Assembly (NCBI GenBank): GCA_017409405.1
Contig: JAFQSU010000024.1
Location: forward strand, 1 to 35,351
Length of the DNA: 35,351 nt
Source of the DNA: Oscillospiraceae bacterium
GTDB lineage: Bacteria > Bacillota > Clostridia > Oscillospirales > JAAYXM01
Direction: 5' to 3'
In this document: positions 17,076 to 35,351 of the stretch, piece after piece
How positions within the stretch are numbered: the first letter of the stretch is position 1
How the letters are laid out: each line of letters opens with the position of its first letter
Translations under genes and position numbers: made by a program
The notes under the pieces: generated by a model
What the model saw: the letters and a program-made list of their open reading frames with translations, nothing else
The model's database searches: none
Told to the model about the DNA's origin: nothing

Positions 17076-18566
17076 ATGAAGTTGAAATCAACAGAAAAAC
17101 TCGAGAACGGAAAGGTTTGTCTCGAAATCCAGGTAGAGAAGCCTGAATTTGATGATGCAATGCAGAAGGCATATCTCAAGAATAAAGCAAAAATCTCCGT
17201 TCCCGGATTCCGTAAAGGAAAGGCTCCGAGAGCTATGATCGAGCGTATGTACGGCAAGGGTGTATTTACAGAGGACGCAATCAATATTGCATACCCCGAT
17301 GCTTTTGAAGCAGCTGTTAAGGAAAGCGGATACGAGCCGGTTGACTATCCGGAGGTTGAGCTTGTAGATATTAACGAAGACGGCTTCACAATGAAGGCAA
17401 CCGTTTCGGTAAAGCCTGAAGTTAAGCTCGGAAAGTATAAGGGCATTGAGGCTGCAAAGCCTGCTGTTTCCGTCACCAAGAAGGACGTTGATGCAGAGCT
17501 TAAGCTCATGCTTGAGAAAAACTCCCGTCTTATCACGGTTGACCGTGCAGCTAAGGACGGCGATACGGTTGTTATCGACTTTGAAGGCTTTGTTGACGGT
17601 GTTGCCTTTGAAGGCGGCAAGAGCGAAAATCACAGCCTGAAGCTTGGTTCAAATCAGTTTATTCCGGGCTTTGAGGATCAGCTTGTCGGCAAGAGCGCAG
17701 GTGAGGAATGCGACGTAAACGTTACTTTCCCGAAGGAATACCATGCAGATGACCTTTCCGGTAAGGATGCAGTCTTTAAGGTAAAGGTTCATGAGGTCAA
17801 AGAAACAGAGCTTCCGGCTCTTGATGATGAGTTTGCAAAGGACGTTTCTGAATTTGAAACACTTGATGAGCTTAAGAAGAGCATTGAAAAGAAAATCCGT
17901 GAGAGCCGCGAAAAGGTTGCAAACGATACTTTTGATGATGTTATTCTCAAAGAAGTTGTCAAGGGTATGAAGGTTGACATCCCTGAGGTTATGATTGATA
18001 ACCAGCTTGATCAGATTTGCTCTGACTTCGGTCAGCGTCTCCAGATGCAGGGCATCACTCTTGAACAGTACCTTGAAATGATGCAGTCCAACATGGATGA
18101 TTTCCGCAAGAACTTCCGTGAGCAGGCTGAAGCACAGGTTAAGTCACGTCTTGCACTTGAGGCTGTTTCAAAGGCTGAGGGTCTTGAGCCTACAGATGAA
18201 GATGTTGATGCAGAGTATAAGAAGCTTTCTGAGCAGTACGGGATGGAAGAAGAGCGTATTCGCGGTTTCCTCCCTGTTGAGGCTATGAAGAGTGACCTTT
18301 ACACAATTAAGGCTCTTGCATTCATCCGCGACAATGCCGTTGTTAAGGCACCTGCTAAGAAGACTGCTGCAAAGAAGCCGGCAGAAAAGGCTGATGCAGC
18401 TGAGGCTGAAAAGAAGCCTGCTGCTAAGAAGACCTCCACTGCCAAGAAGACAACAACAGCAAAGACCGCTTCTGCAGATAAGCCGAAGACTACAAAGTCT
18501 GCAACTGCTGCAAAGAAGCCGGCAGCTAAAAAGAGCACTGCAAAGAAAGCAGAGTCAGAAGAATAA
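17076..18566 (+). CDS. tig: Trigger factor with Lys/Ala-rich C-terminal tail
   Basis: Trigger factor is the ribosome-bound chaperone and prolyl isomerase for nascent chains. The N-terminal domain has the ribosome-docking GFRKGKAP at residues 44-51. An FKBP-type domain lies at about 155-245 (DGDTVVIDFEGFVDGVAFEGG, QFIPGFEDQLVGKSAGEE), then a helical chaperone domain ends near residue 423. The last 73 residues (424-496) are an unusual low-complexity tail of Lys, Ala, Pro and Thr with repeated AAKKPA and TAKKT units; I count 22 lysines by eye. Standard trigger factors stop near residue 430. The ATG at 17076 has AAAGGA upstream. It heads the tig-clpP-clpX-lon group. Confidence 0.96.
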   Translation: MKLKSTEKLENGKVCLEIQVEKPEFDDAMQKAYLKNKAKISVPGFRKGKAPRAMIERMYGKGVFTEDAINIAYPDAFEAAVKESGYEPVDYPEVELVDINEDGFTMKATVSVKPEVKLGKYKGIEAAKPAVSVTKKDVDAELKLMLEKNSRLITVDRAAKDGDTVVIDFEGFVDGVAFEGGKSENHSLKLGSNQFIPGFEDQLVGKSAGEECDVNVTFPKEYHADDLSGKDAVFKVKVHEVKETELPALDDEFAKDVSEFETLDELKKSIEKKIRESREKVANDTFDDVILKEVVKGMKVDIPEVMIDNQLDQICSDFGQRLQMQGITLEQYLEMMQSNMDDFRKNFREQAEAQVKSRLALEAVSKAEGLEPTDEDVDAEYKKLSEQYGMEEERIRGFLPVEAMKSDLYTIKALAFIRDNAVVKAPAKKTAAKKPAEKADAAEAEKKPAAKKTSTAKKTTTAKTASADKPKTTKSATAAKKPAAKKSTAKKAESEE

Positions 18567-28170: not shown

Positions 28171-29013
28171 TTACATTTTATTTTTATACAAATTTCTGTA
28201 TTCTCTTATAGTCATTCCGTACTTCTTTTTAAAGCATTTCATAAAATAGAGCTCATCTGCAAAGCCTACTGCCTCACACACCTTCTTGAGCGGTAACGAT
28301 TCATCGCGAATGAGCTTTGCCGCACGAAGCAGGCGCAGCTCACACAAATATGCCACGGGAGTAACCTTCATCTTTTCCTTAAAAAGCCTCGACATGTATG
28401 TGTGATTGACATGCAAAAGATTTGAAATGCTGTTGATTGTGAACTCGGGATTTTTATAGTTGAGCTCAATTGTTTTTCTTACGTTTTCGACAAAGCTCGC
28501 ACCCGATACCGCAGTTTTGTAAGTAGCCTCAAACGTCTGAGTAAGCGTCAGTAATTGAAGAAGTGTTGAAAGCGTGGTGTGGTAAAGCTCCGGCAGCGGA
28601 ATATCCAAAGATACCAACTTATCAAACAAAGCATCTATGCTTTGCGAATTTTTTGTGCTTATAATCGGGCTTTCTTCCGAAACACCCAGAAGCGAGGCAA
28701 ACTTTTCTCCGAAATCATCTCCGAGATGGAAGAAGTAGTAGCTCCACATATTGCTGTCATCGGGATAATATATGACAGGGTTTCCCGGCGGAGTATAGAA
28801 CAAGTCACCGTTTTTTAAATTATAAGTCTTGTCCTTACTTATAAACACACCTTCACCGTCACGGACATAGTGAAAGGTATGGTCAATCTTGAGCTGAACA
28901 AGCTTATTTCCTCCGCCAATGCGCGAACTGTAATACCCTACACTGTTCAAGTCTAAAAAATTTCCATATTTACCCTGAAAGGCAAATCTTCTGTTTTCGG
29001 AGGGAACTGCCAT
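28171..29013 (-). CDS. AraC-family regulator divergent from the DegT gene
   Basis: The 280-aa protein has an AraC sensor domain (FHYVRDGEGVFISKDK, LKNGDLFYTPPGNPVIYYP, WSYYFFHLG) and two C-terminal helix-turn-helix motifs: FTINSISNLLHVNHTYMSRLFKEKM and LPLKKVCEAVGFADELYFMKCFKKKYG. This is a different subgroup from the regulator at 24938. ATG 29013 is used because AAGGAGTG precedes it; the GTG at 29022 is part of that site. Its promoter and that of the DegT gene flank a direct-repeat array, so it very likely controls itself and the DegT operon (inference from layout). The ligand is probably a sugar or sugar derivative. Confidence 0.92.
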   Translation of the reverse strand: MAVPSENRRFAFQGKYGNFLDLNSVGYYSSRIGGGNKLVQLKIDHTFHYVRDGEGVFISKDKTYNLKNGDLFYTPPGNPVIYYPDDSNMWSYYFFHLGDDFGEKFASLLGVSEESPIISTKNSQSIDALFDKLVSLDIPLPELYHTTLSTLLQLLTLTQTFEATYKTAVSGASFVENVRKTIELNYKNPEFTINSISNLLHVNHTYMSRLFKEKMKVTPVAYLCELRLLRAAKLIRDESLPLKKVCEAVGFADELYFMKCFKKKYGMTIREYRNLYKNKM

Positions 29014-29036
29014 AATAATCACTCCTTATATGATGT

Positions 29037-29065
29037 ATAATAACACATTGTATGCAAAAAGTAAA
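29037..29065 (-). promoter_or_regulatory. Promoter of the divergent AraC gene
   Basis: On the minus strand, TTTACT (29065-29060), a 17-nt spacer and TATTAT (29042-29037) stand about 23 nt before the start. The -35 overlaps a degenerate inverted copy of the neighbouring repeat motif (AATTTAC...TTTGCA), which would allow autoregulation. Confidence 0.65.
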
Positions 29066-29070
29066 TTCCA

Positions 29071-29143
29071 CTAAAAAATTTACATGTAATGCAACTAAAA
29101 AATTTACATGTAATGCAGTAGAAAATTTACATATATGTTTGCA
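29071..29143 (+). repeat. Tandem direct-repeat array, candidate AraC operator
   Basis: Two identical 23-bp units start at 29071 and 29095 (core AAAAAATTTACATGTAATGC, ending in A). They have a 24-bp period. A third, diverged unit at 29119-29143 shares GAAAATTTACAT and TTTGCA. A partial copy in inverse orientation lies at 29053-29067 (TGCAAAAAGTAAATT). The array fills the space between the divergent promoters of the AraC and DegT genes. The sequence identity is seen directly; its operator function is inference. Confidence 0.75.
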
Positions 29144-29155
29144 AAAGCATTGATA

Positions 29156-29161
29156 TATAAT
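29156..29161 (+). promoter_or_regulatory. -10 element of the DegT operon, no good -35
   Basis: TATAAT at 29156-29161 is perfect, but the bases at the -35 position (29133-29138, ATATGT) do not resemble TTGACA and lie inside the third operator-like repeat. That pattern is expected for an activator-dependent promoter. Confidence 0.6.
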
Positions 29162-29214
29162 TGAGATGTTAAAGTATCCACATTTAGAATATACAAACAC
29201 GGAGGTACAAAACC

Positions 29215-30680: not shown

Positions 30681-31910
30681 ATGAAGACCATTCGATTCGC
30701 TGTGTGCGGAACAGGTCGTCGCGGCACGTCTCTTGCGAAGGATACGATTCTTGCTCTTCCGGATGTCGAGATTTGCGCGGTCTCCGATCCGTACATAGAT
30801 AAGGCGGAAGGCTGTGCTTCTGCGATAGAAGAAAAGGCAGGTTATCGTCCGAATGTATATCGTGACCACGTAGAGCTGTTTGAAAACGAAAAGCCCGATG
30901 CGGTTTTTGTTGCGACAGGCTGGAAAGAGCACGCAGCTGTTGCAATTCATGCAATGGAAAAAGGTGTTGCGGTTGCATGCGAGGTTGGTGCGGCGTTTTC
31001 CGAAGACGAGTGCCGCAAGCTTATCGAAACCTACGAGAGGACAAAAACACCGTTTATGCTGCTTGAAAACTGCTGTTTCGGGCGCGAGGAGCTGCTTGTT
31101 ACGGCTATGGCGCGTGACGGACGCTTCGGTGAGATAGTTTACTGCCACGGTGCATATATGCACGACCTTCGTGAGCAGGTATCTCACGGCGAGCTTCGCC
31201 GCCATTACAGAAACGGCGAATATTCAACCCGAAACCGCGATAATTACCCGACTCATGACCTCGGTTCCATAGCAAAGCTTCTCGGTATCAATAGGGGAAA
31301 CCGTATGGTGTCTCTCTCAAGCCGTGCTTCAAAGGCAAGAGGTATTCATGATTACATAGTTCGCAGTGAAGATGAAGATATTAAATATCTTGCGTCCCGT
31401 GAGTTCGCCCAGGGAGATATAGTTGAAACCCTCATCACCTGCGAAAACGGTGAGCTTATAAACCTCAGGCTTGACACAACGCTCCCTGCTTACTATTCGC
31501 GTGAGTTTACCGTGCGAGGAACGCGTGGGTTATACAAACAGGACACAAATATGGCGGTGTTTGACGGTGAGGATGTTGACCACGGCGGAAAGATTGAATA
31601 TATGCTCCGCGAAATCAATAACGCTGTTAAATACCATGATGAATATCTCCCCGATATGTGGAAGAACATCACACCTGAGATAGAAGAAGCAGGGCATGGC
31701 GGCATGGATTACTTTGAATTTGAAGTTTTTTGTGACTGCCTGCGAAACGGTAAAGAAATGCCGATAGACGTATACGATGCTGCGGCGTGGATGAGCATAT
31801 CCTATCTCACCGAGCAGTCTATAGCGCAAGGCGGTGCTTCTGTTGACATCCCGGATTTCACCAATGGCAAGTATAAAACACGTCCGTTAAAAGACGTTGT
31901 AAAATTATAA
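30681..31910 (+). CDS. GH109-like Gfo/Idh/MocA-family protein
   Basis: The 409-aa protein has an N-terminal Rossmann fold (FAVCGTGRRGTSLAKD) and motifs I recognise from glycoside hydrolase family 109: CEVGAAFSEDECRKLIE, MLLENCCFGREELLV, GRFGEIVYCHGAYMHDLR and NYPTHDLGSIAKLLGINRGNRM. GH109 enzymes cleave alpha-N-acetylgalactosaminides by an NAD-dependent oxidation-elimination route. The usual YPTHGLG reads YPTHDLG here. Unlike many GH109 members there is no Tat or Sec signal, so it acts in the cytoplasm on an imported sugar. AAAGGA precedes ATG 30681. It is likely cotranscribed with the DegT gene (113-nt gap, no terminator). A plain oxidoreductase role remains possible. Confidence 0.87.
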   Translation: MKTIRFAVCGTGRRGTSLAKDTILALPDVEICAVSDPYIDKAEGCASAIEEKAGYRPNVYRDHVELFENEKPDAVFVATGWKEHAAVAIHAMEKGVAVACEVGAAFSEDECRKLIETYERTKTPFMLLENCCFGREELLVTAMARDGRFGEIVYCHGAYMHDLREQVSHGELRRHYRNGEYSTRNRDNYPTHDLGSIAKLLGINRGNRMVSLSSRASKARGIHDYIVRSEDEDIKYLASREFAQGDIVETLITCENGELINLRLDTTLPAYYSREFTVRGTRGLYKQDTNMAVFDGEDVDHGGKIEYMLREINNAVKYHDEYLPDMWKNITPEIEEAGHGGMDYFEFEVFCDCLRNGKEMPIDVYDAAAWMSISYLTEQSIAQGGASVDIPDFTNGKYKTRPLKDVVKL

Positions 31911-31932: not shown

Positions 31933-34443
31933 ATGAAAAGAGTATTATCAATCATTCTCGCAATCGCAATGTGCATCTCATTACTCCCAACCTTCGCATC
32001 GGCGGCGGACAACAGCGTAGACTTTAAATTTATCGGCAACGGCATAAAGCTTTCTTCCGCCAGCCGCGCCGGTAACAGAGCGTCTAATTCAACCTCGGTC
32101 GGTCATGTTCCGGTTATCGAGTCCGACACGGTCCACCGTATTATCACGTTTAAGAACAATACTTCAAAAGAAATTGCCTACACCCCCGGTGTTGCAGACA
32201 GCAGTGACACCATCCTCATGGCAGGCACATGGGAGGTAGAGGTTCCGGCAAGCGGCACTTACGTTCCGCAGATTAACTACATCGGCTGCAAGTATTCGCC
32301 GAAGTGGGAAATCTTCCTCACGAAAAAGCCTGAAGCGGTTGACGAACAGCTGAGCTCAGACCGCCCGACTTATGACTGGCAGATAGACGCGCTTGATTCG
32401 GCAGATTATGTCGGTACATACGACGGCTACAGTACATCTGACGGCGCACTTCTCTCAAAGAAGTTTATCGACAAGTCGCTCACCGCAGGCACATACTATC
32501 TCACGATTATTGCAAACGGAGAAAATGCAGGAAAAGAATTATATTCCGAAGATGATAATGCAAGCTATTTAATTCCGCTTCTTATTGAGTCCTTCACCCT
32601 CACACCTGCAACCGCACTGGCAAGAGACCATGATTTTGTTATTAAATCAACTTCACTTACATCGACCGCACTTACCGATTATGATGTAAGCAAGTACTTC
32701 AGCAACGATTCTCTTGAATACGTCAGCTGGGTTCCGAAAAACGGCAAATCTGTTGCGGCACTTAATCCCCTCGCAACAGACGGCTATGAGCTTCCACCAC
32801 GAGCGAAAGTGGGCGGTAACGCTGACAACTCTCCTAATCTGTATGCCGACGGATTTGTTTCACAGTTTATAGTCGGAAAGTGGGACAGCACTCAATCCGA
32901 ACAAACTATGTACCAGAAAAACTATGAAGGAACTTCATTTGATGCAAGACCCTCATACGCGATACGCATAAATGTAGAAACAAGCGGTATTTATTCCGTA
33001 ACACTGAAAAATGACTTTACACTTAAAAGTGACGGAGTTAAGAGTTCGAATTTCCTGGAGGATGGCGCACTCACAAGAGCGGCAGTTCCGAATGTTTATA
33101 TCGTAAAAGCAACGGACAAGGCTTCCGAGAATACATTGGCAACCACTCGTGCTGATGTAGCAAAAATGATTGCTGCAAACGGAATTGTCAAGGAACTTGG
33201 CTTGTTTGATTGCGGCACTCTTTCTGATAAAACATTTGAAGAAAACGTCACACTGGAAAAGGGTGAGTATTTCGTCATATTAGATGTATGTGAAAAAAGT
33301 CTTAATGCAAATTCGAACTGTTACTGGCGAGTATATAATGCCGGATTAGAGACTGACTCTGTCTATCAGCTCTTCCTCCTCTCCGGCATTACGCTTACTC
33401 CTGTTGTAACAGCCGAGGACGAAGCTCTTGCAGCAGAGCAGGCAAAGTATGATACGGTAAAGACCGCTAAAGAAGGCGCAATCGCATCCGCAACAGCAGT
33501 CGGTCTTAATGATTCCGCATACATCAATATTATCGGCGCAGATGTAGCTGATAATTCATCTGTAGAAGGAGCAACAGACAGAGTAGAAACAACTCGCGGA
33601 GCAGAAAAAGAAATAACGGCAAAAGAAGTTGACGGTTATGAATTCCTCTACTGGGCAAAGGGACTTGGCGCTGACCGCCGCGTAGTATCAACCGACCCGA
33701 CATACACTGTTAAGGCAACCTCGGGCGGCACATGGCTCTATGCATACTATAAAAAAACGACATCAAATGATGTTTCCGTTATGTTCTATAACGCAGACGG
33801 TTCTGTTATCAGACAGGAGCTTGTGGCAGAGAATGACGATATCACATTCCCCGATGACCCGTCATTTAACAGCTACACCTTCAAGGGCTGGGCGCTCGGC
33901 AATGTCGACAACATCATCACTGAGGCAACGGCAAGCGGCAAGCAGATGCTTTTTGTTGCACAGTACAACGACCCGTCAGATACCGAAAAGGTATACAAGG
34001 TAACGGTAAACGGATATGATGACTATCACGCATACGGCGAATCCGTAACGGCAGTAGCCGCAGAGCGCGACGGAACGGACGTATTCGTATACTGGAAGAA
34101 GGGTGAGGAGATAGTCAGCTTTGATAAGGAATATACCTTCAATGTATTTGAAAACTGCACACTTACAGCGGTATATGCAGCATACAAGCCGGTAACAGAT
34201 GCACTCCGCAAGATTATCATCAGCGGAAACGGTGAAAACATCATGGCAGAGTTTATCGGACTCGGCAGTGCAGTAGAAACAGGTATACTTTTCCACGAAA
34301 CAGCGGAAGCTATAACTCTTGCAAACGCAAGCCACAAGATTGCAATGACGACAAACGGCAACCACCTTGCCGCGCTCAATGACGTCGGAAACTGCATCGG
34401 CTATGCAATCCTTTCAAACGGCAACGTAATTTACGATAAGTAA
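31933..34443 (+). CDS. Secreted protein with duplicated unknown module and InlB-type repeats
   Basis: The 836-aa protein has a Sec signal peptide (MKR, hydrophobic core, ASA cleavage after residue 24). Two related modules of about 155 residues follow (about 68-226 and 338-491). Each shows a VxVxxSGxYxxx strand, a LTKK/VKATD segment, LxxGxYYLxI and a closing FTLTP or ITLTP. Three stretches (about 558-608, 613-678, 687-750) resemble Listeria-Bacteroides (InlB B/Flg_new) repeats with GYEFLYWAKG, SYTFKGWALG and VFVYWKKG. A C-terminal domain (757-836) ends in NGNVIYDK. No LPXTG, choline-binding or SLH anchor is seen. AAGGAGG lies 22 nt or less after the GH109-like gene. Function unknown; surface glycan binding is a guess. 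Confidence 0.85.
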   Translation: MKRVLSIILAIAMCISLLPTFASAADNSVDFKFIGNGIKLSSASRAGNRASNSTSVGHVPVIESDTVHRIITFKNNTSKEIAYTPGVADSSDTILMAGTWEVEVPASGTYVPQINYIGCKYSPKWEIFLTKKPEAVDEQLSSDRPTYDWQIDALDSADYVGTYDGYSTSDGALLSKKFIDKSLTAGTYYLTIIANGENAGKELYSEDDNASYLIPLLIESFTLTPATALARDHDFVIKSTSLTSTALTDYDVSKYFSNDSLEYVSWVPKNGKSVAALNPLATDGYELPPRAKVGGNADNSPNLYADGFVSQFIVGKWDSTQSEQTMYQKNYEGTSFDARPSYAIRINVETSGIYSVTLKNDFTLKSDGVKSSNFLEDGALTRAAVPNVYIVKATDKASENTLATTRADVAKMIAANGIVKELGLFDCGTLSDKTFEENVTLEKGEYFVILDVCEKSLNANSNCYWRVYNAGLETDSVYQLFLLSGITLTPVVTAEDEALAAEQAKYDTVKTAKEGAIASATAVGLNDSAYINIIGADVADNSSVEGATDRVETTRGAEKEITAKEVDGYEFLYWAKGLGADRRVVSTDPTYTVKATSGGTWLYAYYKKTTSNDVSVMFYNADGSVIRQELVAENDDITFPDDPSFNSYTFKGWALGNVDNIITEATASGKQMLFVAQYNDPSDTEKVYKVTVNGYDDYHAYGESVTAVAAERDGTDVFVYWKKGEEIVSFDKEYTFNVFENCTLTAVYAAYKPVTDALRKIIISGNGENIMAEFIGLGSAVETGILFHETAEAITLANASHKIAMTTNGNHLAALNDVGNCIGYAILSNGNVIYDK

Positions 34444-34647: not shown

Positions 34648-35351
34648 ATGAAAAATAGGATTATTTCTTTCATACTCACGGTATGTATGGTAATATCCCT
34701 TCTGCCTGCAAATGTGCTTGCGGCATCAGGGATTACCATCGAATATGCATTTGCAGACAGCGGTGCAATAGGACTGTATCACAGCTCCGCCATAAGAGGA
34801 GGCAATGCAACGTCCGATAATGCTTCTTTATCCGCATGGCCTGTACCTACGGATAAGGTTGACGGAAATTACCGCCTTATTACATTCAAAACCACCGGAA
34901 AGCCTGTGAGCTTCACACCCGGAACTGCTACTCCGTCAGGGTCTGTGCTTGCGGCAGGTACATGGGAGATAACAGTGTCAAAGGACGCTACGTACACACC
35001 GACGGTATCACTCCTTGCGGCGGCATCTTCCCCTGTTTACGACGTGTATCTCACAAAAAAAGACACGGCTAATCCGCAGTTTGCACAGGGCAAAAAGCTT
35101 GATGAGCCGTACCTTTCTGCAATCAGTGCTGCGGACTATATCGGCACAATTGACGGCTATGGCGCAAGTGACGGCACGGTTATAACCGAGACGTTCTCGG
35201 ATAAACCACTCACAGAGGGTACATATTATCTCACCCTTGCGGCAAACGGCTCAAACGCGACGGAGATATTCAACACAAACTATGTTCCGCTTCTGCCGGT
35301 AAGGTTTAAGCTTGTTGAGTATAAAGCACCGGTTGTGGTGTACCCGTCAGA
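34648..35351 (+). CDS. Secreted paralogue of the preceding protein, truncated by window end
   Basis: An open frame starts at ATG 34648, after AAGGAGGA, and runs off the window after 234 codons. It begins with a signal peptide (MKNRIISFILTVCMVISLLP, cleavage near VLA after residue 25). The mature part aligns by eye with residues 68-224 of the upstream protein: RLITFKTTGKPVSFTPG, LAAGTWEITV, VYDVYLTKK, ADYIGTIDGYGASDG, PLTEGTYYLTLAANG and YVPLLPVRFKLVE. It is therefore a tandem duplicate, diverged but colinear. The rest of the protein, including any repeats or anchor, lies outside the window. The gene is unbroken as far as it can be seen. Confidence 0.88.
   Translation, partial: MKNRIISFILTVCMVISLLPANVLAASGITIEYAFADSGAIGLYHSSAIRGGNATSDNASLSAWPVPTDKVDGNYRLITFKTTGKPVSFTPGTATPSGSVLAAGTWEITVSKDATYTPTVSLLAAASSPVYDVYLTKKDTANPQFAQGKKLDEPYLSAISAADYIGTIDGYGASDGTVITETFSDKPLTEGTYYLTLAANGSNATEIFNTNYVPLLPVRFKLVEYKAPVVVYPS

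Follow-up and report, generated by a model that had tools for sequence, protein, structure and literature searches.

The araC–DegT intergenic region and its repeats

The 201 bp (25% GC) that separate a minus-strand araC gene from the sugar-enzyme genes facing it, of which a plus-strand DegT gene is the nearest, in this Oscillospiraceae bacterium contain a short tandem repeat array, which raises the question of whether the array serves as an operator for the adjacent regulator and how it compares with the operators of related regulators. The locus was analyzed within its surrounding DNA (35,351 bp in full, hereafter the window), and the features identified are collected in Table 1.

Table 1 Features of the araC–DegT locus (positions within the window).
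Feature	Position	Strand	Basis or remark
AraC-family regulator P0001	28171..29013	-	cupin-type AraC_binding domain and two HTH
Candidate extra half-site ATGGAAATTTTTTAG in araC coding sequence	28953..28967	-	uncertain; matrix score 10.6
araC ribosome site AAGGAGTG	29020..29027	-	sequence
araC -10 TATTAT	29037..29042	-	17-bp spacer to TTTACT
araC -35 TTTACT	29060..29065	-	promoter TTTACT-17-TATTAT
Half-site 1 (araC-proximal) ATGTAAATTTTTTAGTG	29069..29085	-	distal half-site matrix score 10.5
24-bp tandem unit, copy 1, ACTAAAAAATTTACATGTAATGCA	29070..29093	+	direct comparison
Half-site 2 (central) ATGTAAATTTTTTAGTT	29093..29109	-	matrix score 10.5
24-bp tandem unit, copy 2, ACTAAAAAATTTACATGTAATGCA, identical to copy 1	29094..29117	+	direct comparison
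Half-site 3 (DegT-proximal, third unit) ATGTAAATTTTCTACTG	29116..29132	-	matrix score 10.9
Third unit, degenerate, GTAGAAAATTTACATATATG	from 29118	+	23 bp on, ~75% identical
DegT operon -10 TATAAT	29156..29161	+	perfect -10
DegT ribosome site GGAGG	29201..29205	+	sequence
DegT/DnrJ/EryC1/StrS-family aminotransferase P0002	29215..30567	+	Pfam DegT_DnrJ_EryC1 5.6e-73
GH109-like Gfo/Idh-fold protein P0003, downstream of DegT	30681..31910	+	Pfam Glyco_hydro_109_C 4.9e-49

P0001 exhibits an N-terminal ligand-binding/dimerisation cupin domain (AraC_binding, PF02311, 1.7e-11) and a C-terminal AraC/XylS-type double helix-turn-helix (HTH_AraC, PF00165, 4e-19, in two stretches; HTH_18, PF12833, 9.4e-19). 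Against the curated arabinose AraC model NF007860 it reaches 69 bits, short of the cut-off of 208, so it does not qualify as an E. coli-type AraC. The ATG at 29013 is preferred as its start over a GTG at 29022 because the ribosome site overlaps the GTG. On the other side of the intergenic region, P0002 finds its top PDB match in 8gyh (2.5e-49), and P0003 matches 2ixa (1.1e-75). Two consecutive secreted proteins with similar N-terminal regions are encoded downstream of the GH109-like gene (31933-34443 and 34649 to the window end); both exhibit a signal-peptide-like start, and weak List_Bact repeat matches are seen in the 31933-34443 protein.

Tandem repeats as long as these are not expected by chance: no exact direct repeat exceeds 13 bp in any of 1000 dinucleotide-shuffled versions of the intergenic region. 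A sequence-only reading of this DNA had described two identical 23-bp units with a 24-bp period, a diverged third unit and an inverse partial copy. Its coordinates and description are right apart from the unit length: the two copies are indeed identical and tandem, but they are exactly adjacent and the same over 24 bp, and the unit is therefore 24 bp rather than 23 bp plus a 1-bp gap. The diverged third unit is found as described and retains the half-site core ATGTAAATTTT, and the stretch TGTAAATTTT is found in each of the three units. The inverse partial copy is weak, consisting by eye of a minus-strand AATTTAC-N4-TGCA around 29068-29052 together with 79% inverted matches that stem from the palindrome TTACATGTAA. 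One further copy of the repeat core, CTAAAAAATTTCCAT, had been missed and lies within the araC coding sequence at 28953-28967. Exact direct repeats of 22 bp (18351-18550) and 21 bp (751-1000), each within 200 bp, also occur elsewhere in the window.

A genome-wide search for the array unit returned no other copy, the single 3-mismatch match (at C85) looking chance-like. The idea of a genome-wide regulon was dropped, and the confinement of the unit to this site fits a local regulator.

Both promoters can be assigned, although only approximately in such AT-rich DNA. The araC core promoter aligns significantly with the promoter of the paralog L046 (0 of 200 shuffles as good). The DegT promoter has, as had been reported, a perfect -10 without a -35: the hexamer 17 bp upstream of the -10 (ATATGT, 29133-29138) is unlike any -35. 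The sequence TGATATATAAT could serve this promoter as an extended -10. Another promoter-like match upstream of DegT is TTGAGA-18-TAGAAT (29161-29190).

A predicted operator shared by related AraC regulators

Because none of the genomes searched keeps the AraC-DegT pair, relatives of the regulator were compared instead. The comparison set comprised 16 paralogs from the same genus, with 30-38% identity to P0001, together with 5 loci of the class that belong to other families (~21 loci). A box, WATGTSTTTTTNNGACAT or a near variant, is found in constant orientation upstream of the 16 genus paralogs, and leave-one-out scores for a second half-site upstream of the box peak at an offset of 21 bp. The half-sites are direct repeats, ATGTSTTTTTT-like and usually 21 bp apart, one ending just 5' of the araC -35 and the other abutting a weak divergent -35, the sequences of which are poor. 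From box start to araC -35 the distance is 21±1 bp in 14 of the 16 genus paralogs, most with a 17-bp spacer, and the box lies about two helical turns farther out in the L049/L044 pair. The divergent -10 likewise keeps a constant place, at +43 relative to the box (equalled by none of 500 shuffles) and ~22 bp past the distal half-site. One subgroup (L042, L048, L051 and L039) has its second half-site, which reads ATGTCAAGAATTGACAT on the divergent strand, by eye 32 bp, or three helical turns, from the first; it still abuts the divergent -35, and the divergent -10 has moved by 11 bp. The five loci outside the genus (L141, L142, L143, L144 and L146) share a TGTGTTTTTTT box, and in each the second half-site lies upstream of it at exactly 21 bp.

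In a genus and family scan that allowed two mismatches, all five of the exact matches to ATGTSTTTTTNNGACAT among those listed (two in G004 and one in each of G000, G001 and G003, four genus genomes) sit in the promoter of one of these regulators or of its operon; at G000:C71 a small cupin-like gene stands between box and araC. The divergent gene is a P0003 homologue (62-76%) in nine genus loci, and four of the class relatives also adjoin one. The window locus is thus an AraC/GH109-like cassette in which DegT lies between the two. A limited literature search found no published description of this widespread divergent pair. At one locus (L045:5620-5694), an oxidoreductase-araC operon is preceded by two 34-bp copies (94%) 41 bp apart, where the close relative L050 has one; L045 shows a recent operator duplication directly and is a precedent for operator growth by this route. 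For the AraC subfamily encoded next to GH109-like genes in different families of one class, the comparison predicts an operator whose geometry is constant at both divergent promoters.

The DegT arrangement itself was sought in the relatives, in 394 genomes of the order, in 391 of the class and in one genome-collection scan, and none of the genomes searched keeps the AraC-DegT pair. The best P0001 relative in those searches is 38% identical, and the genome-collection scan gave only distant HTH matches. Genus DegT homologues are 67-77% identical, but none adjoins a P0001 relative, and upstream of them a different element is found and no such repeats. L086, L087 and L094 have a common element, approximately TTGCTCRAAACTTGAAAATTCTTGTT, then TTTGTTATACTTTG, upstream of DegT, and probably belong to a different regulon.

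The array matches the family in half-sites and promoter distances

The scoring matrix for the array came from the distal half-sites of the relatives, with the window excluded. This matrix was adopted after the proximal half-site matrix, ungapped or gapped, had given no significant result on the array (p = 0.17). With the distal matrix, the three units outscore every other intergenic position (10.9, 10.5 and 10.5; next 4.9), a match that depends on the choice of matrix and has an AT-rich core. None of 1000 shuffles reaches the third-best score, and 1.8% reach the best. Among all positions of the window on either strand, the units rank 2, 4 and 5; a high match at 35066 falls within a coding sequence and was put down to chance. 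Pairwise alignments to most single relatives are not significant, among them the alignment to L045/L050 with its shared TTTTTA(G)TTGCAT (p = 0.5-0.8). The sequence-only reading had proposed a motif with a TGCA end; the part shared with the family is instead ATGTAAATTTTTT, read toward araC.

Geometric agreement at both array ends is independent of matrix choice. Half-site 1 starts 20 bp from the araC -35 (21±1 in the family), with a spacer of 17, and lies 72 bp from the araC ATG (mostly 66-77 bp in the paralogs). At the other end, the edge of half-site 3 is 24 bp from the DegT -10, 2 bp longer than the ~22 bp of relatives. The third unit, which the sequence-only reading had placed over the -35 position, abuts the -35-less DegT promoter, as the distal half-site does in relatives. 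The array departs from the family in having three units rather than two and periods of 24 and 23 bp rather than 21 bp. With two units' worth (47 bp) taken out, 82 of the 129 bp between box and DegT start would remain, a value inside the range of most relatives (74-98 bp) and in keeping with growth by duplication. The family tree gives P0001 a long branch that lacks support, and its DNA specificity may therefore differ.

Taken together, half-site scores, placement at both promoters and departure from the 21-bp two-site norm support the earlier proposal of a local AraC operator with an unusual multi-copy layout. On this comparative evidence, the array is quite probably the operator of the adjacent protein P0001, enlarged by tandem duplication and controlling both promoters.

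Proposed mechanism and alternative explanations

Under this predicted operator, each unit would be a half-site bound by one AraC monomer, contacted through its two helix-turn-helix motifs. A two-half-site operator of the family type would have given rise, by tandem duplication of a 24-bp segment, to three half-sites at 24/23 bp. Lying just 5' of the araC -35, the araC-proximal half-site would control the araC promoter, and its geometry suggests autoregulation. On the other side, the DegT-GH109-like operon lacks a -35, and the DegT-proximal half-site lies directly against that position; there, ligand-bound AraC may recruit RNA polymerase in a class II-like activation. AraC-family dimers bind direct repeats because a flexible linker joins the dimer and DNA-binding domains (PMC9723621); by analogy, such a linker could tolerate 24 instead of 21 bp at this array. 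The central half-site would be able to pair with either neighbour. A more speculative extension, to which we give a rather low probability, is that this half-site is shared, a dimer occupying sites 1 and 2 (araC side) or 2 and 3 (DegT side) at the out-of-phase 24/23-bp spacing, so that the array would act as an either/or araC-DegT switch, possibly with an intragenic fourth site.

The extra copies may have arisen by neutral tandem duplication, through slippage in AT-rich DNA, and have no regulatory role, with one or two units alone counting. We regard this as a possibility of about one part in several, well short of likely. In its favour, the identity of the copies over all 24 bp, spacer included, points to recent duplication, and the 24/23 period departs from the 21-bp norm. 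Retention of the half-site core in the third unit, the position of the outer units where the family has its half-sites and the occurrence of a duplicated operator in L045 argue against it. Neutral duplication is in any case compatible with the operator reading of the outer units.

A looping switch as in E. coli araBAD is unlikely; in it the array would pair with the copy inside araC (28953-28967), which would serve as a fourth, O2-like site. That copy has one mismatch to the repeat core, where no such copy is expected by chance in the window, ranks 3 of ~70,000 positions with the distal half-site matrix and lies 118 bp (11.2 turns) downstream of half-site 1; however, the paralogs have no intragenic half-site, and the copy encodes NFLDL, similar to the KFLKL of the paralogs, so coding constraint may account for it.

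It is somewhat less plausible still that another regulator, such as a dimeric repressor, binds a palindrome repeated 24 bp apart. The perfect 10-bp palindrome TTACATGTAA does occur twice (29080-29089 and 29104-29113), with an imperfect third, TTACATATATGTTT, but it spans the unit junction (TTAC/ATGTAA) and is missing at the araC-proximal end, and half-site match, orientation and both promoter distances all agree with an AraC-family operator. Phased A-tracts or a UP-like element that bends DNA in place of protein half-sites, suggested by the A6T3 tract in both identical units, can be largely set aside, since a 24-bp spacing (~2.3 helical turns) leaves the tracts out of phase and the conserved ATGT edge and the family match would go unexplained.

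Comparison with known systems

The AraC-family operator favoured here has a close parallel in E. coli AraC, a cupin-plus-HTH protein with divergent genes, whose araI1-araI2 site consists of two direct-repeat half-sites at 21 bp beside the -35 of the regulated promoter. P0001 is likewise a cupin-plus-HTH protein whose gene is one of a divergent pair with direct-repeat half-sites beside a -35, but the window has three (possibly four) half-sites, spaced at 24/23 bp and of other sequence. AraC-family rhamnose regulators of Bacillales, Bacteroides and Enterococcus also use direct-repeat operators, with unique motifs and a common 21-bp periodicity (PMC3870299). The genus paralogs share this periodicity, whereas the window array has three units at 24/23 bp, and the target genes here are DegT and GH109-like genes.

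Further counterparts are the GH109-adjacent genus and class relatives (L040, L042, L048, L049, L051, L053, L054, L141, L144 and L146), which have divergent AraC/GH109-like genes with a half-site beside each promoter; promoter distances, measured in the genus loci among them, agree with the window. They differ in having a pair of half-sites, 21 bp apart or, in one subgroup, 32 bp, and in lacking DegT between the two genes. The L045 operator (G003) resembles the array as a tandemly duplicated AraC-family operator, but its 34-bp copies, which lie 41 bp apart, precede an oxidoreductase-araC operon and do not sit between divergent genes. The array is a variant of a well-known gene switch and no new kind, and it overturns no rule. 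Set beside these systems, it offers a natural test both of operator growth via tandem duplication and of how far an AraC operator can leave the 21-bp rule, here with three half-sites at 24/23 bp.
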